Part shown: positions 13,454 to 25,800 of the stretch, piece after piece
Numbering within the stretch: the first letter of the stretch is position 1
Layout of the letters: the number at the start of each line of letters is the position of its first letter
Source of the DNA: a virus
IMG/VR virus record: IMGVR_UViG_3300031692_000036
Location: 1 to 25,800 of that record
Length of the DNA stretch: 25,800 nt
Direction: 5' to 3' (one strand)
Program-made: the position numbers and the translations under genes
Notes under the pieces: model-generated
The model's database searches: none
Seen by the model: only the letters and a program-made list of their open reading frames with translations
What the model was told of the DNA's origin: nothing

Positions 13454-15406
13454 TTGCTCGCAGAATTCATCTCCAGGGCGTGCCCGGCGACCGCCGAGCT
13501 CATCAAGCCCATCAAGCCCCCAAGCGACGACTTCCTCAAGATAGGTCTCGACGACACGGGCAAGAGGTTCGTGGCTTCGTTCGAGGTCGGAAACGGGGAG
13601 GTCCGCGCGTACGACTCGCAAATGGCACTCAGGCACGGGATGCGCAAAGAGCTGATGCGCCGCGTGCCCGAGCGTAAGCACATGGCGGCCTATGAGAGGT
13701 GGGCGCTAGCTGCGACCGACACGACTGCAGTGGTGCTGGCGGCGTCGTGGCCGCTGAAGCAGACGCGGTTCGCGACAGAGTCGGCGAGGACGACGTTTAG
13801 CTACCTGCTTGGGCTGCTGGTACGACAGGCCGAGGGGGTGCGGCTGCAAGACGCTTGGAACGCCCGCAAGGAGGTGCGAGACGTCGAGGGGTACGTGCGG
13901 CACCCTGACAACCCGCTCGCCGACTACCAGAGAATGGCGCTGGCCGCAGCGGCGGACGAGGAGGGGTTCGGGCTGTTTATGGAGCAGGGCACCGGCAAGT
14001 CCGCGGTGGCGGTGGCGCTCGCTAGCATCTTGAGCTCGCGGGCCGAGGACGGGAAGCTGTTCTCCGTGCTGGTGGTCTGCCCGAAGAACGTGCGCAGCAA
14101 CTGGGCCGCGGAGTTCGCGAAGTTCGCCACGCAGCCCGGACAGCTCACGATCATGCGCGGAGACGCGATAGAGCGGATGAAGCGACTCACGGACGTGTTC
14201 AGAGCGTCGTCCGGGGACGTCAGGCGGTGGGCGGCGGTCATCGCGTCGTACGAGATAGTAGGGAGGAGCTGGGAGGCGTTCAAGAACGTGCGCTGGGGGC
14301 TGACAGTGCTCGACGAGTCGCACGCGATAAAGTCTCCGACCGCCAAGCGGTCGAAGTCGATAACGCGGCTGAGAGACAGGTCCGACAGGCGGCTGATACT
14401 GACCGGCACCCCGGTGACGAACAGCGTGATGGACCTGTGGACGCAGCTAGAGTTCTTGCGGGAGGGCGGAAGCGGGTTCGTGTCGTACAAAAACTTCAAG
14501 GCGTTCTACGGGAAGTTCATCGAGGTCGGGGGAGACGGAAGGAGGATCGAGAAGTACGTGGGGGCTAAGAACCTGCCGGTGCTGCAGGAGCGGCTGGCGA
14601 GAGTGACGTTTCGGGTGACGAAGAAGCAGGCGCTCCCGGACCTCCCAGAGAAGACGTACTGCGTGGAGGAGGTCGCGATGACCAAGCAGCAGGCGCGCGT
14701 GTACGACAGGCTGCGGAAAGCGCTCATAGTCGAGCTCGAAGAAGACATGCGGGCGGCGGAGAGCGCTGGGCGCGTGGTGACCGCCACCCACGTGTTCACT
14801 AAGCTGATGCGGCTCGCCCAGATAACTAGTGGGTTCGTGAAGGCCGACGACGGGACGGTAACCGCGTTCTCTCCGAACCCCAAGCTAGAGGCCGTGGTGG
14901 CCAAGATAGCCGCGTTGCCGAGCGACGAGAAGGCGGTCGTGTGGGCGACGTTCGTGGGGGACATCCAGCGAATGTCGTCGAGACTGACCGCAGAGGGGGT
15001 CAGAAACGTGGTGTACTACGGCCAGATAAAAGACGACGCGAGAGACGCGGCAGTCGCCGCCTTCAACAAGGACAGGGACTGCCGAGTGTTCTTAGGAAAC
15101 CCAGCCGCCGGAGGGGTCGGAATCAACCTCTGGGGCTACGACGAGCGCCTGTGCCCAAACACGAACTGCACGCTGGTAGGGTACTACTCGCAGAACTGGA
15201 GCATGACCGAGCGCTCGCAAAGCGAGGATAGGTCTCACAGGAGGGGAACGAGGGCCGGCGTCAACGTGGTGGACTTCGTCGTGCCAGGCACGATAGACGA
15301 GGAGATACGGGTGAGGGTGATCAAGAAGAGAACGAGCGCGGAGGAGGTGCAGAACCTCCGCGAGATCATCAGCCGCATAGCGGCTTCCTCCCCGGAGGTA
15401 GAGTGA
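13454..15406 (+). CDS. SNF2-family DEAD/H-box-type helicase (ATPase)
   Basis: 650 residues, TTG start. After an N-terminal extension of about 150 residues the helicase motifs follow in order: DYQRMAL (Q-like motif, 157-163), Walker A EQGTGKS (177-183), LVVCPKNVRSNW (motif Ia), LDESHAIKSPTAKRSK (motif II, DESH 287-290), LILTGTPVTN (motif III, 314-323). In the second RecA-like domain come VVWATF, FLGNPAAGGVGINL and SEDRSHRRGTRAGVNVVDFV (motif VI). The 'DEsH.iK....' and 'LTGTP..N' wording is typical of SNF2-type ATPases, which translocate on double-stranded DNA. Many siphophages carry one in their replication block. It may help displace proteins or assist recombination and replication. It opens this block and its stop overlaps the next start. 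Confidence 0.88.
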   Translation: MLAEFISRACPATAELIKPIKPPSDDFLKIGLDDTGKRFVASFEVGNGEVRAYDSQMALRHGMRKELMRRVPERKHMAAYERWALAATDTTAVVLAASWPLKQTRFATESARTTFSYLLGLLVRQAEGVRLQDAWNARKEVRDVEGYVRHPDNPLADYQRMALAAAADEEGFGLFMEQGTGKSAVAVALASILSSRAEDGKLFSVLVVCPKNVRSNWAAEFAKFATQPGQLTIMRGDAIERMKRLTDVFRASSGDVRRWAAVIASYEIVGRSWEAFKNVRWGLTVLDESHAIKSPTAKRSKSITRLRDRSDRRLILTGTPVTNSVMDLWTQLEFLREGGSGFVSYKNFKAFYGKFIEVGGDGRRIEKYVGAKNLPVLQERLARVTFRVTKKQALPDLPEKTYCVEEVAMTKQQARVYDRLRKALIVELEEDMRAAESAGRVVTATHVFTKLMRLAQITSGFVKADDGTVTAFSPNPKLEAVVAKIAALPSDEKAVVWATFVGDIQRMSSRLTAEGVRNVVYYGQIKDDARDAAVAAFNKDRDCRVFLGNPAAGGVGINLWGYDERLCPNTNCTLVGYYSQNWSMTERSQSEDRSHRRGTRAGVNVVDFVVPGTIDEEIRVRVIKKRTSAEEVQNLREIISRIAASSPEVE

Positions 15407-15813
15407 TGAGTCAGAGAGTGATCTTCGTAGAAGAGCCGCGGAGCGGGTTCAACTTGGACAGCGCGACGAGGCTAGGGGAGATGGTGGTGCTGCTCAAGAA
15501 CGGAGTCGACCGCCCGTCGGTGTTCAAGGTGCGCGACTTCGTCAGAGCCGTGCTAGACGAGCTGACGAGGATCGGGTACGACCCGAGAGCCGACATACTG
15601 GTTAACTGCGGGGCGCTCGCGCCAGTCACGGTGGCCACCGCGGCGATGGTGGAGCGGTACGGGGCGCTGAGAACGCTGCTGTTTCACGCCCCGTCTGGAG
15701 AGTACGTAGAGTGCAAGATAGGAGAGAGTCATGGCGGAGCAAGACGCGGTGAGCCTGTACGGCTGCGTGAAGCGGACGCACATCACGGCGTACAAGATGA
15801 TGGGGGACATTAG
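15406..15813 (+). CDS. Conserved-looking hypothetical protein downstream of the helicase
   Basis: 135 residues from the ATG at 15406, with GGAGGT at 15394-15399. Residues 1-105 look like a compact alpha/beta fold: RVIFVEEPRSGFNLDSATRLGEMV, VFKVRDFVRAVLDELTRIGYDPRADILVNCG, YGALRTLLFHAPSGEYVECKIG. The segment 'fDP..D.iv..G' resembles a small protein I have seen near phage SNF2 helicases, but I cannot name its family. The last about 27 residues (Arg- and His-rich) are translated out of phase from the start of the next gene (83-base overlap) and are probably unimportant. Confidence 0.6.
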   Translation: MSQRVIFVEEPRSGFNLDSATRLGEMVVLLKNGVDRPSVFKVRDFVRAVLDELTRIGYDPRADILVNCGALAPVTVATAAMVERYGALRTLLFHAPSGEYVECKIGESHGGARRGEPVRLREADAHHGVQDDGGH

Positions 15814-16372
15814 GGACTCGGTGCGGAAGTCTCCGCGGCTGGCGGACCTTGCCGACGTCGCCGGTATCGGGAAGAAGGCGGCGGAGCTGCTCGACGACCT
15901 GCGCAAGGAGGCGACTAAGCTGTCGGAGTTCGCGCAGAAAGTGGCGTGCGCGATAGTCGTCCAGCGGCAAGACGCGGACACGATACGCGGGGAGTACGCC
16001 ACGGCGACTCCGGACGTGCGGATGGTGCCGAGGCTCCCTAGCCGCACGCGCGAGCCGGAGAAGTACTCCGCGCTTCTGAGGTCGCTCGGGCTGCCGGAGA
16101 GCCCGATGGTGCGGCTCCACTGGCCGTCGATCGCAGACGAGATGAACGCCAGGCTGCGAGAGGGCGGAAGTCTACCGGCCGGCATCGACCCGGACGACAC
16201 GTACCCAGAGTACAGACTAACGACTCGAATGAACATGGCGGCGCTGGAGGCAGCCGCAGAAGAGAGAGGAGGCGACGAGCAAACAAAGACAGCGGGAGTG
16301 AAAAAGAGGAAACTCGTAAACGAGAAGACCAGAAAGGTGCTAGCATGGCTCAAGACGCAGTCCAAAAAATAG
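15731..16372 (+). CDS. Unknown replication-block protein with possible helix-hairpin-helix
   Basis: 213 residues; AGGAGAG at 15719-15725 supports the ATG at 15731. Residues 36-62 (RLADLADVAGIGKKAAELLDDL) contain a G-I-G-K-K turn between two helices, like the DNA-binding helix-hairpin-helix. A second part (EKYSALLRSLGLP, VRLHWPSIADEMNARLREGGSLPAGIDPDDTYPEYRLTTRMN) looks conserved in style, with a Trp-Pro and a 'lP.Gidp..tyP' turn. The C-terminus is strongly basic and Lys-rich. DNA binding is plausible but unproven. It overlaps the next gene by 28 bases. Confidence 0.6.
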   Translation: MAEQDAVSLYGCVKRTHITAYKMMGDIRDSVRKSPRLADLADVAGIGKKAAELLDDLRKEATKLSEFAQKVACAIVVQRQDADTIRGEYATATPDVRMVPRLPSRTREPEKYSALLRSLGLPESPMVRLHWPSIADEMNARLREGGSLPAGIDPDDTYPEYRLTTRMNMAALEAAAEERGGDEQTKTAGVKKRKLVNEKTRKVLAWLKTQSKK

Positions 16373-17234: not shown

Positions 17235-20096
17235 GTGCGGAGCACCCTCATAGAGCGGATATCGGTGGTCGCCGAGCTCGAGCGCCTGAAGTGGGACTTC
17301 AGGCTGCAGCAGGACGACCAGATCAAGTGCAGGTGTCCGTTCCACGACGACTCGCACGCCTCGTGCTCGATAGGGGCGCAGTCGCGGAAGTTCAAGTGCC
17401 ACGCCGCCGGGTGCTCGGCGGAGGGGGACTTCGTTTCGTTCGTGGCTCGGGCGCTGGCCACCGACAGGAAGACGGTGCTGTTCGACCTGCAGAGCAGGTA
17501 CGGGGTGTCGCGCCGCAGGACGATCTCTTCTCAGCACATAGAGAAGTGCCACGCGGCGCTGTGGACCGCCGGGCCGCTGCTGGAGGAGCTCAGGAAGAGG
17601 GGGGTCACCGACGAAGCGATACGGAAGAGACGCATAGGGTACAAGGACGGCCGCGTCACGATTCCGGTGTACGACGAGTCTGGGGCGTGCGTGAACGTCC
17701 GCCGGTACAGCCCGGGGGCACCGCCGCAGGACAAGATGCGCAACACCCCCGGGTGCGGGGCCATAAGGCTGTACCCGCTGGACCAGCTGGAGTACGACAG
17801 GGTGGTCCTGTGCGGGGGAGAGATAAAGGCGGTTGCCATCGCCGACGCGATCAACCGGCTGGGGTGGGGGGCCGTCTCCACCACGGGCGGGGAGGGGTCG
17901 TGGAGCCGCGGGTTCAACGACCTCATCCGCGGCAAGAGCGTGTGGGTCATGATGGACGTCGACGACGCGGGGAGGACGGCGTCAGAGCGGCTGTGCAGGC
18001 TGGTAAAGGGGGCGGCGAAGACAGTGCACGACGTGCTGCTCCCTCTCGACCGAGGGCTGTACCCTACTGGTGACGTCAACGACTGGATCGGCGGAGAGGG
18101 GGCGACGGGGGAGGACATCGTCAAGCTGCTGTCGGCGACGAGCGAGTGGGAGCCGGCGGGGAGGGCCGAGAACGACGATGCGCCGCCGGTCCGCGTGCCG
18201 TTCTCGGCTGTCACCAAGGCGGAGCACGCCGGCAGGCGCGTGGTGACGACCGCGACGGTGGCCGCTCTCGACGTGACGCCGTACACCGTCCCGCTGACGG
18301 TGAGGTGCGAGTGCGACAGAAGCCAAGAGGGGTGCGGGTCATGCCCAGTATACCCGATGCAGGCTGACGGAGACGGCGGGACGGCGGTGACGATAGGGCC
18401 TCGGTCGCCGGCGCTGCTGGAGATGGTGAACGCGTCCGTGAAGGCGATGCCGGAGGCGATCAAGAAGGCGGCGGGGATACCTCGGTGCAAGTCGGCCTCG
18501 CTGACAGTGCTAGACTACCGGAACATGGAGGACTGCCGGCTGGGGCCCAGGCTCGAGGTCACGGAGAGAACCACGGAGAGGACGGCAGTGCCGGCCGTGT
18601 TCGTGGGGCACGGGCTGGAGAGCAACGCGGCATACGAGGTCGAGGGGGTCATGCTCCCGCACCCGCGCGACCAGCACGCCGTCTTGCTGCTGAGCAGGGC
18701 CTCTCCGATAGAGGACAGCCTGTCTACGTACAGGCCGACTGACGACGAGATGCGCGAGCTGCGCGCGTTCCAGCCTGGCAGGTGGACGACAGAGTCTATA
18801 CGCGAGCGGCTAGACGCGCTGTACGCCGACCTGTCGGCCAACGTGACGCGGATATACGGGCGGCCGGACATGCACATGGCGGTGGACCTGGCGTACCACT
18901 CGCCGCTCGTGCTGCGGTTCGACGGAAAGCGCGTGAAGGGCTGGGTGGAGGTGCTGATCATAGGGGACTCGTCTCAGGGCAAGACTGACGTCACGGCGCA
19001 GATGCTCGACCACTACGGGCTGGGGGCGGTGGTCGACTGCAAGAACGCCAGCGTGGCCGGGCTGGTCGGGGGCCTGCAGCAGATAGGAACCAGGTGGTTC
19101 GTCACGTGGGGGGCCCTACCGGCCCACGACTCCGGGCTGGTCGTGCTCGAAGAGCTCAAGGGGGCGTCGACAGAGGTCATATCGCGCATGACCGACATGC
19201 GCTCGAGCGGGGTGGCCAGGATAGAAAAGATCGAGAAGCGGAGGGCGCACGCGCGAACAAGGATAGTCGCGGTTAGCAACCCGCGTGACGACGCCGCGAT
19301 GGCGTCGTTCACGTTCGGGGTGGAGGCGGTAAAGCACCTCGTCGGGGGGCTAGAAGACGTCAGGCGGTTCGACCTCGCGATGGCGGTGACCGCAGACGAG
19401 ATAGACCCGGCGGAACTCAACAGGCTCAGGAAGCACCGGCCGGAGGTGAGGCACGACGCCACCGCCGTGCTGAGCAACAGGCTCGTGCTGTGGGCGTGGT
19501 CTAGGACCGAAGACCAGGTGTCGTTCGACGACGACGCGACGGAAGAGGCGCTGCGGGTCGCAGGGGAGCTGTGCGGGGACTTCGACGAGTCCATCCCGCT
19601 CCTCGACTCCGGCTCGACGAGGTACAAGGTGGCCAGGCTGGCGGCGGCGGCGGCCTGCAGGACGTTCAGCCACGGGGACGGGTGGTCGGCTCGTGTCCGC
19701 CGCTGCCACGTAGAGTTCGTCGGGGAGACGCTGCGGCGCCTGTACTCCTCTCCAGGCATGGGGTTCGACGAGTACTCGCGCGGAAGGAAGCGGAGGGCGG
19801 CGCTGCTAGAGCCAGAGACCATACGGACCGCGGTGCTGCAGACCCCGTACCCGAGAGACTTCATCCAGCAGATGCTCACAACAGTAGACATAGAGCTGCG
19901 GGACATAAACGACTGGTGCGGGTGGGAGAAGGACGATTCGCTTCAGCTCGTGTCTACGTTGGTGCGCAAGCACGCGCTGACGCGCGTGCGCAACTCGTAC
20001 AGAAAGACGCCGCTGTTCACGAGACTACTGAAAGAGCTTGAGACGTCTGACGCCTTGAAAGGCGTAGACAGGCCGGGCCACGTGGAGAGATTCTGA
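17235..20096 (+). CDS. Primase-helicase: DnaG-type zinc/TOPRIM primase fused to an MCM-like AAA+ ATPase
   Basis: 953 residues from the GTG at 17235; no clear ribosome site precedes it. Zinc finger of the CHC2 type: C34-x2-H37, then C55-x4-C60 (CPFHDD, KFKCHAAGC). TOPRIM core: E196 in LCGGEIKAV and D241-V-D243 in VWVMMDVDDAGR. From about 315 a second part starts that resembles an MCM N-domain: VTTATVAALDVTPYTVPL followed by a C-x-C-x6-C-x2-C cluster (C358, C360, C367, C370). The ATPase follows: Walker A GDSSQGKT (577-584), Walker B LVVLEE (635-640), the MCM-style stretch MRSSGVARIEKIEKRRAH, sensor-1 AVSNP (N682) and an arginine-finger-like RRFDL (711). The protein would prime and unwind the phage DNA at the fork. 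The primase part is secure; the MCM assignment is a careful reading of motifs. Confidence 0.85.
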   Translation: MRSTLIERISVVAELERLKWDFRLQQDDQIKCRCPFHDDSHASCSIGAQSRKFKCHAAGCSAEGDFVSFVARALATDRKTVLFDLQSRYGVSRRRTISSQHIEKCHAALWTAGPLLEELRKRGVTDEAIRKRRIGYKDGRVTIPVYDESGACVNVRRYSPGAPPQDKMRNTPGCGAIRLYPLDQLEYDRVVLCGGEIKAVAIADAINRLGWGAVSTTGGEGSWSRGFNDLIRGKSVWVMMDVDDAGRTASERLCRLVKGAAKTVHDVLLPLDRGLYPTGDVNDWIGGEGATGEDIVKLLSATSEWEPAGRAENDDAPPVRVPFSAVTKAEHAGRRVVTTATVAALDVTPYTVPLTVRCECDRSQEGCGSCPVYPMQADGDGGTAVTIGPRSPALLEMVNASVKAMPEAIKKAAGIPRCKSASLTVLDYRNMEDCRLGPRLEVTERTTERTAVPAVFVGHGLESNAAYEVEGVMLPHPRDQHAVLLLSRASPIEDSLSTYRPTDDEMRELRAFQPGRWTTESIRERLDALYADLSANVTRIYGRPDMHMAVDLAYHSPLVLRFDGKRVKGWVEVLIIGDSSQGKTDVTAQMLDHYGLGAVVDCKNASVAGLVGGLQQIGTRWFVTWGALPAHDSGLVVLEELKGASTEVISRMTDMRSSGVARIEKIEKRRAHARTRIVAVSNPRDDAAMASFTFGVEAVKHLVGGLEDVRRFDLAMAVTADEIDPAELNRLRKHRPEVRHDATAVLSNRLVLWAWSRTEDQVSFDDDATEEALRVAGELCGDFDESIPLLDSGSTRYKVARLAAAAACRTFSHGDGWSARVRRCHVEFVGETLRRLYSSPGMGFDEYSRGRKRRAALLEPETIRTAVLQTPYPRDFIQQMLTTVDIELRDINDWCGWEKDDSLQLVSTLVRKHALTRVRNSYRKTPLFTRLLKELETSDALKGVDRPGHVERF

Positions 20097-20479
20097 TGAC
20101 TAAAAGATACGACGAGAACAGCCCAGGGTACCTCGCAGGGTACAACGCCGCCCTGGAGCGCGCGAGGGCGAGGATCGAGCACATGCGCGGGGAGGTACGC
20201 GGGCTCTCCAACATACTGATGACGATGCTGCATGCGTGCCACGGGGTGGCGGTGACGGCGCCGCAGCGCGGGTTCGTCGAAGACGTGGACTGGCTGCGCA
20301 GAAACAGAGACGCGATACGAGACATGGCGAAGATAATGCTGGACGGGCTGCGAGAGGCGGGCGCGACAAGAGATTGGGGCGTCGTAGACGCGACGCTGAC
20401 GACTATAGAAGCGTACATACAGGAGCACGGCGATGACAGACGCGGAGGCAATGGTCAGGGACTTTCACAGGAAGCATGA
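20096..20479 (+). CDS. Hypothetical helical protein
   Basis: 127 residues. The ATG at 20096 overlaps the stop of the primase gene (TGATG). It begins with KRYDENSPGYLAGYNAALERARARIEHM and continues as mostly helical segments (WLRRNRDAIRDMAKIMLDGLREAG). No motif is recognised. Its last 47 bases overlap the next gene, and the tail they encode (DDRRGGNGQGLSQEA) looks unstructured. The stop-start coupling suggests a replisome accessory role, but this is only context. Confidence 0.5.
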   Translation: MTKRYDENSPGYLAGYNAALERARARIEHMRGEVRGLSNILMTMLHACHGVAVTAPQRGFVEDVDWLRRNRDAIRDMAKIMLDGLREAGATRDWGVVDATLTTIEAYIQEHGDDRRGGNGQGLSQEA

Positions 20480-20927
20480 CTTCCCGACGGGCGAGCCGTT
20501 TCCGAACCCGGCAGAGACGGCGAAGATGCGAGAAGGGACGAGGTTCTTGTCCACCGCGGCGAGAATGCTGACCGACCTTTCTCGACAGGCGCTAGGAATG
20601 GTCGGGGTGAACAAGGAGACGACGCGGCTGATTCGCGCGCACCTCATGCTCGAAGAGCTGGCGGAGACGCTAGAGGCGATGGCGGAGGGAGACGAAGTGG
20701 AGTTCGCGGACGGGCTGGCAGACCTGCTCTACGTGGTGATAGGGGCTGGAGTGGCGTACGACCTGCCGGTGGCGAAGCTGTTCGCGGAGGTGCACTGGTC
20801 GAACATGACGAAGGACGTCCGCGCACCGGACGACGTCAGGCTCTCGCGCAAGGGGCAAAACTTCGTTCCCCCGGCCATAGCGGGGGTCATCGCGCTTCAC
20901 AAGAGGGCGAGGGAGGCGCAGCGATGA
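20433..20927 (+). CDS. MazG-like all-alpha NTP pyrophosphohydrolase (possible dCTPase/dUTPase)
   Basis: 164 residues, AGGAG at 20421-20425 before the ATG. The metal-binding pattern is E75-x2-E78 in LMLEELAETLEAM and E90-x2-D93, D97 in EVEFADGLADLLYVVIGAG, i.e. the ExxE...ExxD arrangement of the MazG/HisE/dimeric dUTPase superfamily. A later WSNMTKD matches the usual 'sNm.K' near the end of the domain. These enzymes hydrolyse (d)NTP to (d)NMP and pyrophosphate. Next to a ThyA-family enzyme, a dNMP kinase and a dCMP deaminase, a role in trimming dCTP or dUTP is the most interesting option. The substrate cannot be read from the sequence. Confidence 0.75.
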   Translation: MTDAEAMVRDFHRKHDFPTGEPFPNPAETAKMREGTRFLSTAARMLTDLSRQALGMVGVNKETTRLIRAHLMLEELAETLEAMAEGDEVEFADGLADLLYVVIGAGVAYDLPVAKLFAEVHWSNMTKDVRAPDDVRLSRKGQNFVPPAIAGVIALHKRAREAQR

Positions 20928-22090
20928 CGACGCTCAAGGCCGTCGGGTGCCACGTGTTCGCGGGTGGGTTCACCGACGGGGTGGCCGAGGTGTTCGACGT
21001 GGACGGCCAGCTAGAGACGTGCGGACTCGGGGAGGAGACGGTTCGCGCAGCTGGGCGCGAGTTCTTTAGGGCTGACGACTGGCGAGACTGGCTGTGCGTG
21101 GATCTGTGGCGCGGGGCGTCCTTCATGTCCGGCAACCCGCGGTGCTCCGGGTTCTCGTGCACGACGGCCGGGTTCGGGGACAGCGGGCGCGGGCCGAACG
21201 CCACCGCCACCAAAGACGCGGTAGAGTTCTGCAGGTTCGGGGCGAAGATCGCGGTCCCGATCATGGCGTGGGAGAGCGTGCAGCAGGCGTACACCACGGC
21301 CGGCCGGCCGCTGTTGCGCAGATTCGCGGACGACTTGATCGCGCGCGGGTACAGGGTAGCGCACGTGCTCACCACGGCAGGGACGTTCGGCAACGCCCAG
21401 AGGAGGGCGCGGTACTTCTTCGTGGCATACAGGGGCGTACGCACCTTCAACGTCTGGGAGCCGGTCCGCTTGACGCGTCAGACGACGGTGCGAGACGTCA
21501 TAGAGCAGATGGAGGCGCTTCAAACAAAGCCGGACAACTTGTGCGCCGGGGGAGACCACGACCCAGACGCGCACCACCACTTTCGCTCAGACGAGGGCAA
21601 AGTAGTCTGGATGCTGCGGGAAGGCGAGAGCCTCAACGACCTCGGCCGGAGGGACCCCAGCGGGCTGCGGGCCGCGAGTGACGAGTACGGAGTGCGGCGG
21701 GACTTTCGCGTGTCGGAAGTCCCTTTCGGCATCCTGAACATGCGGAGGCTCAGGTACGACGCCCCGTGCCCCGTGATATGCAGCGGAAGCGAAAACTTCG
21801 TGCATCCGGCGCTAAATAGAAAGCTGACAGTCAGGGAGCTGGCGCGCCTGATGGGGTGGTCGAGGCTCCCCGTCGGGATGAAGCCAGTCCACCAGCTAGG
21901 CAAGGGGGTGGTGCCGTGTGTCGGGCGGTGGCTCGCGGACTGCGCGGAGACGAGCCTGCGCGACGGGTGGGGAGGCGACGACGTGGGATACGACAGGGAC
22001 GGGTCGAAGAGGGACACGAAGGGGGAGACGGAGAAGGTGATAGACCTGCGCGCCTGGGCGCCGCCGGTCAAGGAGACGAGAGATGACTGA
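20924..22090 (+). CDS. Cytosine-C5 DNA methyltransferase homologue (Dcm-like)
   Basis: 388 residues. C5-methyltransferase motifs appear in order: motif I as HVFAGGFTDGV (10-20), motif IV GNPRCSGFS with the catalytic Cys74, motif VI as AWESVQ (E117, standing in for ENV), motif VIII as FGNAQRRARYFFVA (155-168), and motifs IX-X as HPALNRKLTVRELARLMGW (294-312). A clear C-terminal target-recognition region is hard to define between 175 and 290. Motif IV reads P-R-C instead of P-P-C, and motif I is one residue shorter than FAGxGGF. The enzyme would transfer a methyl group to cytosine in DNA, protecting against host restriction. It overlaps the ThyA-family gene by 8 bases, so both are made together. 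Confidence 0.72.
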   Translation: MTTLKAVGCHVFAGGFTDGVAEVFDVDGQLETCGLGEETVRAAGREFFRADDWRDWLCVDLWRGASFMSGNPRCSGFSCTTAGFGDSGRGPNATATKDAVEFCRFGAKIAVPIMAWESVQQAYTTAGRPLLRRFADDLIARGYRVAHVLTTAGTFGNAQRRARYFFVAYRGVRTFNVWEPVRLTRQTTVRDVIEQMEALQTKPDNLCAGGDHDPDAHHHFRSDEGKVVWMLREGESLNDLGRRDPSGLRAASDEYGVRRDFRVSEVPFGILNMRRLRYDAPCPVICSGSENFVHPALNRKLTVRELARLMGWSRLPVGMKPVHQLGKGVVPCVGRWLADCAETSLRDGWGGDDVGYDRDGSKRDTKGETEKVIDLRAWAPPVKETRDD

Positions 22091-23060
22091 GCTCTTGACC
22101 ACTAGCAACGTGGACGAGACGTGGCACGCCGCGCTGTCGGCGCTGCGAGGAGGACTGCGGACGCGGTTCGTAGCGAGCAGAGCCGGGGCGACCACGGAGG
22201 TGCTGGCGGCCAGCCTTCACATCTCTGCCGGGGAGAACACCTTCCTGGCCAACGAGCGGAGGGCGGCGAGCGCGCAATACGCGGCGGCAGAGCTGCTGTG
22301 GTACCTGAGCGGGACGGCCAACACTCACATGATCAGGCAGTACGCCCCGCAGTACGCCAACTTCACAGAGTCTGACGGTACCGCCCACGGGGCGTACGGG
22401 GCCAGGTGGCGCATGTCCGCGGCCGACAACCAGCTCGAGCGGGCGCTCAAGGAGCTGCGAACGAGCCCAGAGAGTCGCCGGGCGGTCGTCACGGCGTGGG
22501 ACGAGAGCCGAGACCTCGGGACAAACGCTAAGGACATCCCGTGCACGCTATCGATACAGTTCATCCTTCGCGACATGACGCTCCACGCCGTCGCGACGAT
22601 GCGCTCAAACGACGTCTGGCTCGGCACCCCCTACGACATGTTCTGCTTCACGGCGATACAGAGGCTGCTGGCCGACTCGCTAGGGGCTGACGTCGGGCAC
22701 TACTACCACAACGTGGGCAGCCTGCATCTCTACAATAAGAACGCGGTGGCGGCGCTCGAGGCGTGGAGGCAGATAGACTTCGCTTCGCCGCACGAGTGGG
22801 CCAAGACCGCGCTTCCGCTAGACGTCGCCCGCAAGACTGCGGTGAACATCGAGCGGACACTGAGAGAGAGCTCCTCGCAGAGAGCTAAGCTTACTCCCGG
22901 GGAGATCGTCAGCTGCCTCGGGGGTGGTACTTTACTAGCGGACTGCGCGCTGTGCTGCGCGACGAAGTGGGTCAAGCAACCGGTGGCCTACGTCGAGTCC
23001 GTGTCGCACCCGGTCATGAAGAGGAGTCTGAGATGCTTGTTGTCGAAGGGACAGACCTAG
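22083..23060 (+). CDS. ThyA-family pyrimidine (hydroxy)methyltransferase, predicted dCMP-specific
   Basis: 325 residues. ThyA landmarks: AAELLWYLSG with the general-acid/base Glu70, HGAYGARWR, catalytic Cys154 in DIPCTLSIQF, the phosphate-binding RSND (174-177), LGTPYD (180-185) and the H-x-Y of SLHLY (215-217). Thymidylate synthases have Asn at the last position of 'LGxPFN' (E. coli N177, 31 residues after the Cys), which reads the uracil edge. Here it is Asp185, again 31 residues after Cys154, as in T4 dCMP hydroxymethylase (C148/D179). This predicts dCMP as substrate, making 5-methyl- or 5-hydroxymethyl-dCMP with methylene-tetrahydrofolate. Ordinary thymidylate synthase remains the fall-back, especially since a dCMP deaminase gene is nearby. 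Confidence 0.8.
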   Translation: MTELLTTSNVDETWHAALSALRGGLRTRFVASRAGATTEVLAASLHISAGENTFLANERRAASAQYAAAELLWYLSGTANTHMIRQYAPQYANFTESDGTAHGAYGARWRMSAADNQLERALKELRTSPESRRAVVTAWDESRDLGTNAKDIPCTLSIQFILRDMTLHAVATMRSNDVWLGTPYDMFCFTAIQRLLADSLGADVGHYYHNVGSLHLYNKNAVAALEAWRQIDFASPHEWAKTALPLDVARKTAVNIERTLRESSSQRAKLTPGEIVSCLGGGTLLADCALCCATKWVKQPVAYVESVSHPVMKRSLRCLLSKGQT

Positions 23061-23620
23061 TCGGAAAGACGACGCTGTGTCGAGCGCTGCTGGAGCGACT
23101 CAACACGGGGAAGGTCGGCGGAGGACGACCGTGGTCCTACGCGCACCTCGGTGCGCTACCGCGCGAGTGGGACTACGTGACGGACTACGTGCAGAGAACG
23201 AATCCGCGCGTGGTGCAGGACAGGTGGTTTCACAGCGAGCTCGCGTACGGCCCGGTCGTCAGGTCTGGGTCCAAGCTGGGCGCCAGGGAGTGGCGGCTGG
23301 CGGACGCGTGGTTCAGGCTGATGGGAGGTTTCACGATCGTCGTTACCGCCAGTGACGACGCGCTCAGGAGACGGTACGAAAGGTGCGCGCGATCGCAACT
23401 CTTCACGGCGGATCAGATCGTCGCGGTCAACGAGCGCTTCAGAGCTCTGTGCGAGAACAACGCCGGCTCGTTCGCCGACGTAGTGCTCAACTGTGGAGAC
23501 GGCTTTCCTACTGACGACGACCACATAGACTCGGCGGTCGACGCCCTCGGGGCGTATATAACGAGAGTCGCGACCGCGGAGCGGTACGGAAAGGAAAACA
23601 AATGGTGGCCGACGGCATAG
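23033..23620 (+). CDS. Deoxynucleoside monophosphate kinase
   Basis: 195 residues from the ATG at 23033, with GAGGAG at 23021-23026. P-loop EGTDLVGKTT at 5-14, a DRW (63-65, VQDRWFHSELAYG) as in the thymidylate-kinase-like DR[YFW] motif, and a basic lid (LRRRYERCARSQLF). It phosphorylates a dNMP to the diphosphate. The position directly after the ThyA-family gene suggests its preferred substrate is that enzyme's product, either dTMP or a 5-modified dCMP, like T4 gene 1 kinase. It overlaps the genes on both sides by 28 and 19 bases. Confidence 0.8.
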   Translation: MLVVEGTDLVGKTTLCRALLERLNTGKVGGGRPWSYAHLGALPREWDYVTDYVQRTNPRVVQDRWFHSELAYGPVVRSGSKLGAREWRLADAWFRLMGGFTIVVTASDDALRRRYERCARSQLFTADQIVAVNERFRALCENNAGSFADVVLNCGDGFPTDDDHIDSAVDALGAYITRVATAERYGKENKWWPTA

Positions 23621-24129
23621 ACTACACGCGCGTGGACCGGAAGCTGCGCACGTTCATACGGTTCGCTAGGGAGCTCGCAGGGCTCAGCGCGTGCCGACGC
23701 GACAAGGTGGGGTGCGTCGTGTTCCCTAAAGACTTCTCGCGAGTCGTGGCAATAGGGTATAACGGCCCCCCGCGCGGATGCGACAACGGGTCGTGCTCGG
23801 GCGAGGAGGGTCTGTGCGGGTGCGCGCACGCAGAGACTAACGCCATGGTAAGCGGACTAGTCGGGGAGGGGCTGGTGCTGTTCAGCACAAGGAGCCCGTG
23901 CATACACTGCGGGTGCGCGATAGCAAACTGTCAGGCCGTGACGGCAGTCATATACGACCAGCCGTACAAGAACGACTTCGGCGTCGGCGTCCTGCTCAGA
24001 GCCGGCAAGCCGTGCGTGAAGACAGAGGACGTGACGCATGATACGCTTGAGCGACTCTTCGTTCATGGTGGAGCGGCCGAGCGAGCTCCCGAACCTGGCG
24101 CGGAGCCGGAGGCTGTTCCTCGACCTTGA
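23602..24129 (+). CDS. Deoxycytidylate (dCMP) deaminase
   Basis: 175 residues, AAAGGAAA before the ATG at 23602. Zinc-deaminase signature: HAE at 76-78 (CAHAETNAM) and PCIHC at 99-103. Around them is the dCMP-deaminase context RDKVGCVV, VVAIGYNGPPRGC and a Cys-rich loop before HAE. It converts dCMP to dUMP, feeding dTMP synthesis; some family members also accept 5-substituted dCMP. The last about 30 residues (GGAAERAPEPGAEPEAVPRP) lie in a 92-base overlap with the polymerase gene and are Pro/Glu/Ala-rich, so probably a dispensable tail. Confidence 0.85.
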   Translation: MVADGIDYTRVDRKLRTFIRFARELAGLSACRRDKVGCVVFPKDFSRVVAIGYNGPPRGCDNGSCSGEEGLCGCAHAETNAMVSGLVGEGLVLFSTRSPCIHCGCAIANCQAVTAVIYDQPYKNDFGVGVLLRAGKPCVKTEDVTHDTLERLFVHGGAAERAPEPGAEPEAVPRP

Positions 24130-25800
24130 GACGACGTCGTTTGACCCGGCCGTCAAGGCGCTCAACCCGTGGAAGGGGCACAGGACGGCCGGGGTCTGCG
24201 TCTGCGGCGACTCCGGGCCGGCGTGGTACGTCCCTGTCAGGCACACAGGCGACAAGCGAAACCTGCCGCTCGGCCCGGCCATGGAGTGGCTGGGCGACCT
24301 GCTGCGCGCTGATCGCGACTGGGTGAACCACAGCATCAAGTTCGACGCCCACATGGCCGCGGCGGACGGGTGCGAGTTCGGCGGCCGGCTCGTGGACACC
24401 CTGACCATGGCGAAGGTGGTCGACTCAGACCGGTTCAGCTACGGGCTCGGGGAGCTCGGAGACGCTTGGCTCGGCCGCGGCAAGCGCAGAGACAGGGTGG
24501 ACGAGTGGCTGCGCAACTCGTCCCCGAAGACGGTAAACTTCGGAGACGTCCCAGCTGACATCGTCGGGGAGTACGGCTGCGAGGACGTCTTGCTGAACCG
24601 AGAGCTCTTCTTCCGCATGTCCGAGAAGATGCCGGCGCGGTGCTCCGGCGTGTGGGAGACGGAGATAAGGCTCACGTCGGTGCTGTACGACATGGAGAAG
24701 GCCGGCATGCGCGTCGACCCGCGCGCGCTGAAAGTCGCCGAGGCGGTCGCCCTCGGGAAGATGTGCCGAATAGAGGAGCGGCTCAATGAGGCGGTCGGGG
24801 GGATAGTGAACCCGGCGTCGAACGACGATTGCTTCCACGTGCTGTGCTCGTCTGAGGGGCTGCCGGTGCTGGGTCGTACGGATGGGGGAGACCCGTCGTT
24901 CGACGCCGACACGTTGAAACAGTACCTGCAGCACCCGGACGTGCACGACGACCAGAGGCTGACCGGAGTGATACGGGCGATGCTCGCCCACAGGAAGCTC
25001 ACGACGCTGCTCGGGCTGTTCGTGCGGCCGTACCAAGAGCTGCAGGTCGACGGGCTGCTCCACCCCGACTACAACCAGAGCGTCAAGAGCGGCCGCATGT
25101 CGTGCAGGAGGCCGAACATGCAGCAGCTGAGCAAGGAGGCCAAGGCGCTGATCGTGCCGGACCACGGGGCGTGGTTCGCGTCGTACGACTACGCGCAGGT
25201 GGAGTTCCGCGTGATAGTGCACTACATCGAGGACCCGGAGGCGATCGCCGCCTACGCGGCCGACCCGTGCACTGACTTCCACGTGTGGGTCGCGAAGATG
25301 TGCGGCATCCCGCGCGGCCCGGCCAAGAACATCAACTTCGCGATTGGCTACGGTGGGGGGCGGGACAAGATCGTGCAGATGCTGTCCGCAAACATGGAGC
25401 TGATGGCCGACGTCGACGCGATAGTCTCGGCGGAGATAGAGGGGGGCTTGTGCCAGCCGAACGACAGGTCGGCTAGGTTCAGGGCCCACTGCCGGGCCAG
25501 GGGACGGGAGGTCTACGAGCTGTACCACAGAAGGCTCCCAGGGCTCAAGAGGACCTCCAGGCAGGCCCAGAGGGCCCTAGAGAGGAGAGGGTACGTGTAC
25601 AACGCCTACGGGCGGCACCTGAGGCTCCCCGCGAAGCTGAGCTGGAAGGCCTTCAACCGGATCGCCCAGTCGACCGCGGCCGACATCACCAAGGAGCGGC
25701 TGGTGGCCACCAGCCCGAGGTTCAACCCTAGGGTGCGGGCGGCTGGGATCGAGCAGCGGGCGGTCGTGCACGACGAGGTGCTGTTCCACGGGCCCCCCGA
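24038..25800 (+). CDS. Family-A DNA polymerase with 3'-5' exonuclease (3' partial)
   Basis: 587 residues are visible and the gene continues past the window. The ATG at 24038 has AGAGGA at 24024-24029. Exonuclease motifs: FLDLETTSF (D29, E31), NHSIKFD (97-103), YGCEDVLLN (Y179, D183). Polymerase motif A DYAQVEFRV with D384, motif B R426-G-P-A-K430-N-I-N-F434-A-I-G-Y438, and motif C VVHDEVLF (H578, D579, E580). No 5'-nuclease domain is at the N-terminus. It is the phage replicative polymerase. F434 corresponds to E. coli Pol I Phe762, which in phages has been linked to discrimination against ddNTPs and often to virulent lifestyles. It would incorporate any modified dNTP made by the upstream genes. 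Confidence 0.92.
   Translation, partial: MIRLSDSSFMVERPSELPNLARSRRLFLDLETTSFDPAVKALNPWKGHRTAGVCVCGDSGPAWYVPVRHTGDKRNLPLGPAMEWLGDLLRADRDWVNHSIKFDAHMAAADGCEFGGRLVDTLTMAKVVDSDRFSYGLGELGDAWLGRGKRRDRVDEWLRNSSPKTVNFGDVPADIVGEYGCEDVLLNRELFFRMSEKMPARCSGVWETEIRLTSVLYDMEKAGMRVDPRALKVAEAVALGKMCRIEERLNEAVGGIVNPASNDDCFHVLCSSEGLPVLGRTDGGDPSFDADTLKQYLQHPDVHDDQRLTGVIRAMLAHRKLTTLLGLFVRPYQELQVDGLLHPDYNQSVKSGRMSCRRPNMQQLSKEAKALIVPDHGAWFASYDYAQVEFRVIVHYIEDPEAIAAYAADPCTDFHVWVAKMCGIPRGPAKNINFAIGYGGGRDKIVQMLSANMELMADVDAIVSAEIEGGLCQPNDRSARFRAHCRARGREVYELYHRRLPGLKRTSRQAQRALERRGYVYNAYGRHLRLPAKLSWKAFNRIAQSTAADITKERLVATSPRFNPRVRAAGIEQRAVVHDEVLFHGPP

Follow-up and report, generated by a model that had tools for sequence, protein, structure and literature searches.

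Why would a phage that appears to replace the cytosine of its DNA also keep a homologue of the C5-methyltransferases? The question is raised by IMG/VR record IMGVR_UViG_3300031692_000036, a partial virus genome of 25.8 kb that was analysed in its entirety (the window). The window is a tailed-phage fragment with ~64% G+C, structural genes at its start and replication genes at its end. An earlier note had described six overlapping genes at 20433-25800 and read them as a T4-like modified-cytosine route. The ends of the open reading frames (all on the + strand: 20433-20927, 20924-22090, 22083-23060, 23030-23620, 23602-24129 and 24038 to the contig end) and family searches bear out this arrangement. 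The route itself stood in part: its dCMP-acting ThyA-family core is well supported, and its product, which had been left unspecified, is now sharpened to hydroxymethylation. The modified-cytosine reading is likely to be correct and of a known kind, with hydroxymethyl-dCMP as the more precise product. The note gave the C5-methyltransferase homologue no role, yet this homologue is the most unusual member of the cassette. In our judgement the cassette very probably replaces cytosine by 5-hydroxymethylcytosine, which is the T4 strategy. That the C5-methyltransferase homologue is a tailoring enzyme acting on hydroxymethylcytosine DNA is a more tentative proposal. Overall, the two together are probably the best explanation of the locus.

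The chemistry of the cassette depends on the ThyA-family enzyme, for which the following features were located.

22083..23060, + strand: ThyA-family enzyme, predicted dCMP hydroxymethylase (PF00303, 1e-29; best PDB matches MilA CMP hydroxymethylase)
22533..22547, + strand: Asp151-Ile-Pro-Cys154-Thr155, the hydroxymethylase Asp, the nucleophile and the dCMP-type Thr (equivalent to T4 Asp145, Cys148 and Thr149)
22635..22637, + strand: Asp185, the cytosine-selecting residue (position 177 of E. coli ThyA, T4 Asp179)

The residue code was checked by alignment with T4 gp42, SPO1 gp29, M6 and relatives, and the dCMP-type active site claimed earlier was confirmed residue by residue against gp42. In the alignment, 11 of 12 functional gp42 positions were kept (Glu60, Tyr96, Arg123, Arg124, Asp145, Cys148, Arg168, Ser169, Asp171, Asp179 and Tyr218), and Thr149 and His216 were likewise matched. 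Glu70 of the window protein corresponds to Glu60, and Cys154 to the catalytic Cys148. In gp42, Asp179 selects cytosine and Asp145, three residues ahead of the catalytic Cys, has a role in hydration; a D145N mutant made no hydroxymethyl-dCMP (PMC6400193). In the MetaGPA study, Asp177 went with modified cytosine, and residue 147, which is His in thymidylate synthases, was the second discriminating residue (PMC8670742). The thymidylate synthase marks Asn177 and His147 are not present in the window protein, which has Asp185 and Thr155 instead. Ser175 and Arg132 of the window enzyme (Ala176 and Lys133 in MilA) are the residues described as the deoxyribose forms at these positions (PMC5175136). SPO1 and M6, whose DNA is derived from hydroxymethyl-dU, share the Asp ahead of the Cys but carry Asn both directly behind the Cys and at 177. 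Because Asp185 points to cytosine and Asp151 to hydroxymethylation, the enzyme is predicted to be a dCMP hydroxymethylase and not a methylase, which is the best reading of its sequence.

The second gene of the cassette was examined in the same way.

20924..22090, + strand: Lys-type C5-methyltransferase homologue (PF00145, 1e-11; motifs NPRCSGFS, ESV, QRRARYF and GKGVVP)
21143..21145, + strand: catalytic Cys74 of motif IV (invariant in 41 members; aligned with SpCmoX Cys98)
21272..21274, + strand: Glu117 of motif VI, in which ESV replaces ENV (invariant in 41 members)
21902..21904, + strand: Lys327 of motif X, at the position of HhaI Asn304 and CmoX Arg350 (invariant in 41 members)

The hallmarks of PF00145 are retained in the fold, the catalytic Cys, the Glu and the Arg-x-Arg, while ENV and the motif-X Asn are replaced by ESV and Lys. 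The predicted fold is that of a whole C5-methyltransferase (AlphaFold predicted local distance difference test score, pLDDT, of 92.8). Structure comparison of this model gave a Z of 28.8 for HaeIII (root-mean-square deviation 2.6 over 287 residues) and of 24.8 for CmoX 8YF3 (3.1 over 286 residues).

Single-protein scans with the window ThyA and C5-methyltransferase sequences gave one and zero loci, and family alignments were used instead. The profile of the homologue led to 79 further IMG/VR loci, with search patterns that selected motifs I and IV only. ESV stood in place of ENV in 79 of the 79, and Lys in place of Asn wherever motif X was readable. Across 41 diverse members, Lys327 was as invariant as Cys74, Glu117, Arg161 and Arg163. 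The alignment that places Lys327 in the column of SpCmoX Arg350 independently recovered the published Cys98 and Arg350. The residues in contact with S-adenosylmethionine (SAM) were compared by sequence alignment with CmoX as the reference. The Glu that binds the SAM ribose was kept in 40 of 41 members, and in 35 of 41 the adenine-stacking Phe of CmoX has given way to His or Gln. The adenine-contact Asp was aligned in 16 of 41, including the window, and is not conserved in the clade, although the alignment of motif III is uncertain.

In a maximum-likelihood tree, all 53 Lys-type sequences fell on one side of a branch with 100/99 support, and the Arg-type CmoX group was nested among ordinary enzymes, apart from them. 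With the two types in separate clades, Lys and Arg most probably came to this position independently of each other. One search pattern found no relative in 84,980 bacterial and archaeal species genomes. Judged by sequence, the Lys-type homologues appear to be a deep, phage-only clade of altered DNA-cytosine methyltransferases.

The Lys-type homologue is linked to the dCMP hydroxymethylase in both directions. Starting from the homologue, all 64 readable ThyA-family genes in Lys-type loci or records (30 + 9 within loci and 25 more from a neutral PF00303 search of the remaining records) had Asp three residues before the Cys (Cys-3) and Asp at 177. Automatic read-outs that had matched a wrong Cys were not used (L030, L038 and L057, and L017 for position 177). 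Starting from the hydroxymethylase, 18 of 50 records held a PF00145 gene, and 18 of these 18 had E[SC]V and the motif-X Lys. For comparison, an ordinary query, which was partly selected for EN and is informative only for the motif-X and ThyA counts, brought together 80 viral C5-methyltransferases as a control: ENV was found in 80, with Asn in 69, Arg in 11 and Lys in none. Any ThyA-family gene was present in 4 of 47 control records vs 25 of 38 Lys-type records (Fisher p 3e-8), and none of the three readable ones in control records was of the hydroxymethylase type. The Lys-type sub-clades are deep, and gene order differs between them. MazG, C5-methyltransferase and ThyA are adjacent in the window-type clade; in the other clade, MazG and C5-methyltransferase adjoin and ThyA lies kilobases away.

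The wider gene order also recurs. Many IMG/VR contigs show the series primase/helicase, MazG, C5-methyltransferase, ThyA-like, kinase, deaminase and polymerase at a protein identity to the window cassette of only about 30-45%, so the arrangement is not due to chance. The closest GenBank relative is ctIqW946 (MW202657, Manatee Spring), with 43% identity in the ThyA-like protein and 40% in the polymerase. It also holds a Lys-type homologue, but after the polymerase, and has extra hypothetical genes within the cassette. Lys-type homologues are present in Kurnik and DSL-LC01 as well. Two further phages share the core. Stenotrophomonas phage AXL3 has MazG, a thymidylate-kinase (TMK)-like kinase, a ThyA with Asp at 177 (D-type) and dCMP deaminase in a row, as in the window, and Manatee Spring phage ct3Et533 has MazG, kinase, hydroxymethylase, deaminase and polymerase. 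Where the window has the C5-methyltransferase homologue, both of these phages have an unrelated SAM methyltransferase. Of 37 enzymes tried on the DNA of AXL3, an isolated phage, 35 failed to cut it, and the two that did cut have sites made up of A and T only (PMC7504290). On contigs enriched for modified cytosine, PF00303, PF01503 and PF00383 co-occur (MetaGPA, PMC8670742).

The following order of events is proposed. The MazG-like enzyme would drain dCTP to dCMP. The ThyA-like enzyme, which has the residues for it, would form a Cys adduct with dCMP and then an exocyclic methylene, and water added to the latter would give the hydroxymethyl group. The TMK-like kinase may accept hydroxymethyl-dCMP and begin its phosphorylation towards hydroxymethyl-dCTP, which the polymerase would insert, and the dCMP deaminase could turn surplus dCMP into dUMP for thymine. 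With dCTP drained and hydroxymethyl-dCTP supplied, little plain cytosine should be left as a substrate for a normal C5-methyltransferase.

The homologue would come into play once the cytosines of the DNA have been hydroxymethylated. It has retained what is needed to flip out cytosine and attack C6 (the Cys, the Glu, the Arg-x-Arg and the whole fold). The contacts to the adenine of SAM appear altered, and a Lys at the motif-X place would lie near the group to be transferred. Attack of the Cys on C6 of hydroxymethylcytosine could let the hydroxyl leave, so that another group joins the exocyclic methylene. This methylene intermediate would be of the same kind as that of the hydroxymethylase and open to another nucleophile. 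In vitro, hydroxymethylcytosine can be joined to thiols and selenols by C5-methyltransferases. As the enzyme is kept only in such phages, with its attack on cytosine intact and its cofactor residues altered, action on hydroxymethylcytosine is the simplest reading. We therefore put forward, with some reserve, that the Lys-type enzymes are a phage-only family working on 5-hydroxymethylcytosine in DNA by a chemistry that is as yet undescribed and differs from SAM methylation: the Cys would add to C6, the hydroxyl would leave and another group would be coupled.

Three points weigh against this explanation. AXL3 has no Lys-type homologue, which means that the homologue is not needed for the modification as such. 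The association counts are not independent events, because the clade appears to have one origin and some of the contigs are near-copies; the records are, moreover, fragmentary in part. Lastly, T4 Ser94, also called a signature residue, is Gly103 in the window ThyA-like protein. Since this position is Gly in M6 and Ala in SPO1, Ser94 looks specific to T4 and not defining.

Among the other explanations, a conventional function of the homologue comes first. As a sequence-specific 5-methylcytosine methyltransferase, it might mark host DNA or rare plain cytosines. The predicted complete fold with its catalytic residues would suit such a function, as would the conserved ribose-binding Glu, but no member retains ENV or the motif-X Asn, and none of the hydroxymethylase phages examined had an ordinary Asn-type enzyme. 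We regard this function as unlikely. A related route, in which 5-methylcytosine is made and then oxidized by TET/JBP enzymes, was searched for with PF12851; no match was obtained, but the control of this search gave none either.

The Lys at motif X also recalls CmoX, the DNA C5-carboxymethyltransferase of phage S-B43, which shares the C5-methyltransferase fold and a basic residue at the position of HhaI Asn304. A homologue of this kind would bind the carboxylate of carboxy-SAM (Cx-SAM) with its Lys and carboxymethylate cytosines that escaped hydroxymethylation. Lys327 stands in the CmoX Arg350 column, which is the position changed in M.MpeI N374K, an engineered enzyme able to use Cx-SAM (PMC12783734). 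However, CmoX has Arg350 and not Lys, keeps SPPC (NPRC in the window) and ENV, works with a CmoA partner and has no known tie to a dCMP hydroxymethylase. The separate clades of the two types, the altered adenine contacts (kept in CmoX, according to the alignment) and the expected scarcity of plain cytosine also speak against it. CmoA was found in 0 of 22 records with a positive S-B43 control, although the window and some of these records are fragments and a host CmoA could serve. Carboxymethylation is thus a rather improbable function.

C5-methyltransferases can also remove the hydroxymethyl group from hydroxymethylcytosine as formaldehyde in vitro, without a cofactor. An eraser that strips this group at chosen sites and leaves plain cytosine as a signal would agree with the altered SAM site, but its purpose is unclear, and we consider it improbable.

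The identity of the ThyA-like enzyme leaves less room. The dCMP-selecting Asp would also suit a dCMP methylase that leads to 5-methylcytosine DNA, as in Xp12, and the Xp12/DLP4 phages share MazG, a ThyA-like enzyme with Asp at 177 and dCMP deaminase with the window, MazG and deaminase genes adjoining ThyA in the Xp12 group as well. DLP4, a relative used as a stand-in for Xp12, nevertheless has Asn at Cys-3, a Pro following the Cys and a dihydrofolate reductase (DHFR) gene, whereas the window enzyme shares with three hydroxymethylases the Asp ahead of the Cys. This makes a methylase very unlikely. An ordinary thymidylate supply operon of deaminase, thymidylate synthase and thymidylate kinase is scarcely credible: such phage genes are often annotated in this way, as in AXL3, but at positions 177, 147 and 143 the window enzyme has Asp, Thr and Asp in place of Asn, His and Leu, DHFR was not found in 24 records of its kind (the window fragment and 23 like records), and ThyX coexists in 9 of 24 records of this kind.

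The remaining genes of the cassette and their upstream neighbour are as follows.

17235..20096, + strand: primase with a DnaG zinc ribbon and a Toprim-like region, fused to an MCM-like helicase domain (PF01807, 4e-7; PF00493, 2e-9)
20433..20927, + strand: MazG/PRA-PH-type nucleotide pyrophosphohydrolase (PF01503, 3.4e-13; phrog_671, 1e-20; PDB match MazG-like DR2231)
23030..23620, + strand: P-loop nucleoside monophosphate kinase, thymidylate-kinase-like (phrog_761, 7e-9; AAA_18, 5e-6)
23602..24129, + strand: dCMP deaminase (PF00383, 1e-11; phrog_174, 5e-25; best PDB matches dCMP deaminases, 1e-11)
24038..25800, + strand: family-A DNA polymerase, truncated by the contig end (PF00476, 3e-31; phrog_17, 4e-81)

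In the pyrophosphohydrolase, the metal-binding motifs EELAE and DGLAD were read directly; the MazG Pfam model itself scored below its cut-off and PF01503 (PRA-PH) above. In the kinase, GTDLVGKT and QDRWFHSELAYG were read directly, and Pfam support for a TMK-like kinase was below the cut-off. No kinship of this kinase to T4 gp1 was seen, and no test aimed at it was made. The proposed roles are those of the T4 hydroxymethylcytosine pathway (gp56 dCTPase, gp42 hydroxymethylase, gp1 kinase and Cd deaminase). The ThyA-like active site equals that of gp42 except for Ser94, and the deaminase matched T4 Cd in the PDB search. Unlike T4, the window uses a MazG/PRA-PH-type pyrophosphohydrolase, a TMK-like kinase and a family-A polymerase, has no glucosyltransferase in the fragment and holds the extra Lys-type homologue.

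The primase/MCM-like gene is the upstream neighbour of the cassette in most relatives. Its 953-amino-acid product fuses a DnaG-type zinc ribbon and a Toprim-like region (Toprim_2 below the cut-off) with an MCM-like AAA+ domain, for which PF00493 was above the cut-off and archaeal and eukaryotic MCM chains were matched in the PDB search. A primase-fused MCM-like helicase is unusual in a bacteriophage. Just upstream of the replication genes, a small protein at 15731-16372 contains a helix-hairpin-helix-like stretch, LADVAGIGKKAAELL, and had no Pfam or PHROGs match. An SNF2-type helicase (PF00176) lies upstream of the cassette at 13454-15406; ctIqW946 likewise has an SNF2-type gene, labelled 'chromatin remodeling complex ATPase-like'.

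As had been noted before, no glucosyltransferase is seen in the window, and because the record is partial the genome continues past it. As the window stops within the polymerase gene, it gives no view of the tailoring genes that this phage may have. In relative L027, a TAGT glycosyltransferase (PF20691) and a 5-hydroxymethyldeoxyuridine-DNA-kinase-like gene (PF18723) follow the polymerase (L027 10986-13205). As these adjoin a D-type ThyA, the hydroxymethyluracil kinase family may also serve a hydroxymethylcytosine phage. A gene ~3 kb after the polymerase is common to 12 relatives, its representative having a DNA-ligase OB domain, and in the other Lys-type clade sugar-nucleotide and glycosyltransferase genes lie near the MazG and C5-methyltransferase pair. 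Three Lys-type genomes share a gene of ~400 amino acids after the polymerase (L131 19355-20617, L113 16103-17344 and L137 16725-17867). It was considered as a glycosyltransferase (L008/L131 and two relatives) and was not interpretable: there was no Pfam or PHROGs match, AlphaFold reached a pLDDT of 42.5 from three sequences, and a search found only already-known loci.

The residues at Cys-3, Cys+1 and 177 separate dCMP hydroxymethylases, dUMP hydroxymethylases, dCMP methylases and thymidylate synthases. By this code, the annotations 'thymidylate synthase' (AXL3) and 'deoxyuridylate hydroxymethyltransferase' (PW916) look wrong. AXL3 has ThyX besides the gene that the authors of its study called a thymidylate synthase (PMC7504290), a double presence that the code resolves. 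Other forms were also seen. The ThyA genes of L204 and L213, both in Lys-type records, have Asp at Cys-3, Asp at 177 and Asn after the Cys, which is a mix of the dCMP and dUMP hydroxymethylase types. In the viral contig L315 (the record of L283), an ordinary C5-methyltransferase goes together with a dCMP-methylase-type ThyA (NIPCP, Asp at 177; compare the Xp12 group).

Hydroxymethylcytosine protects phages against many restriction enzymes, and it is the tailoring of the hydroxymethyl group that determines which defences of the host remain effective. If the proposed role of the homologue is true, it would be a new branch of hypermodification common to many of these phages. A family found only with dCMP hydroxymethylase and altered on its cofactor side is a concrete lead to new DNA base chemistry.

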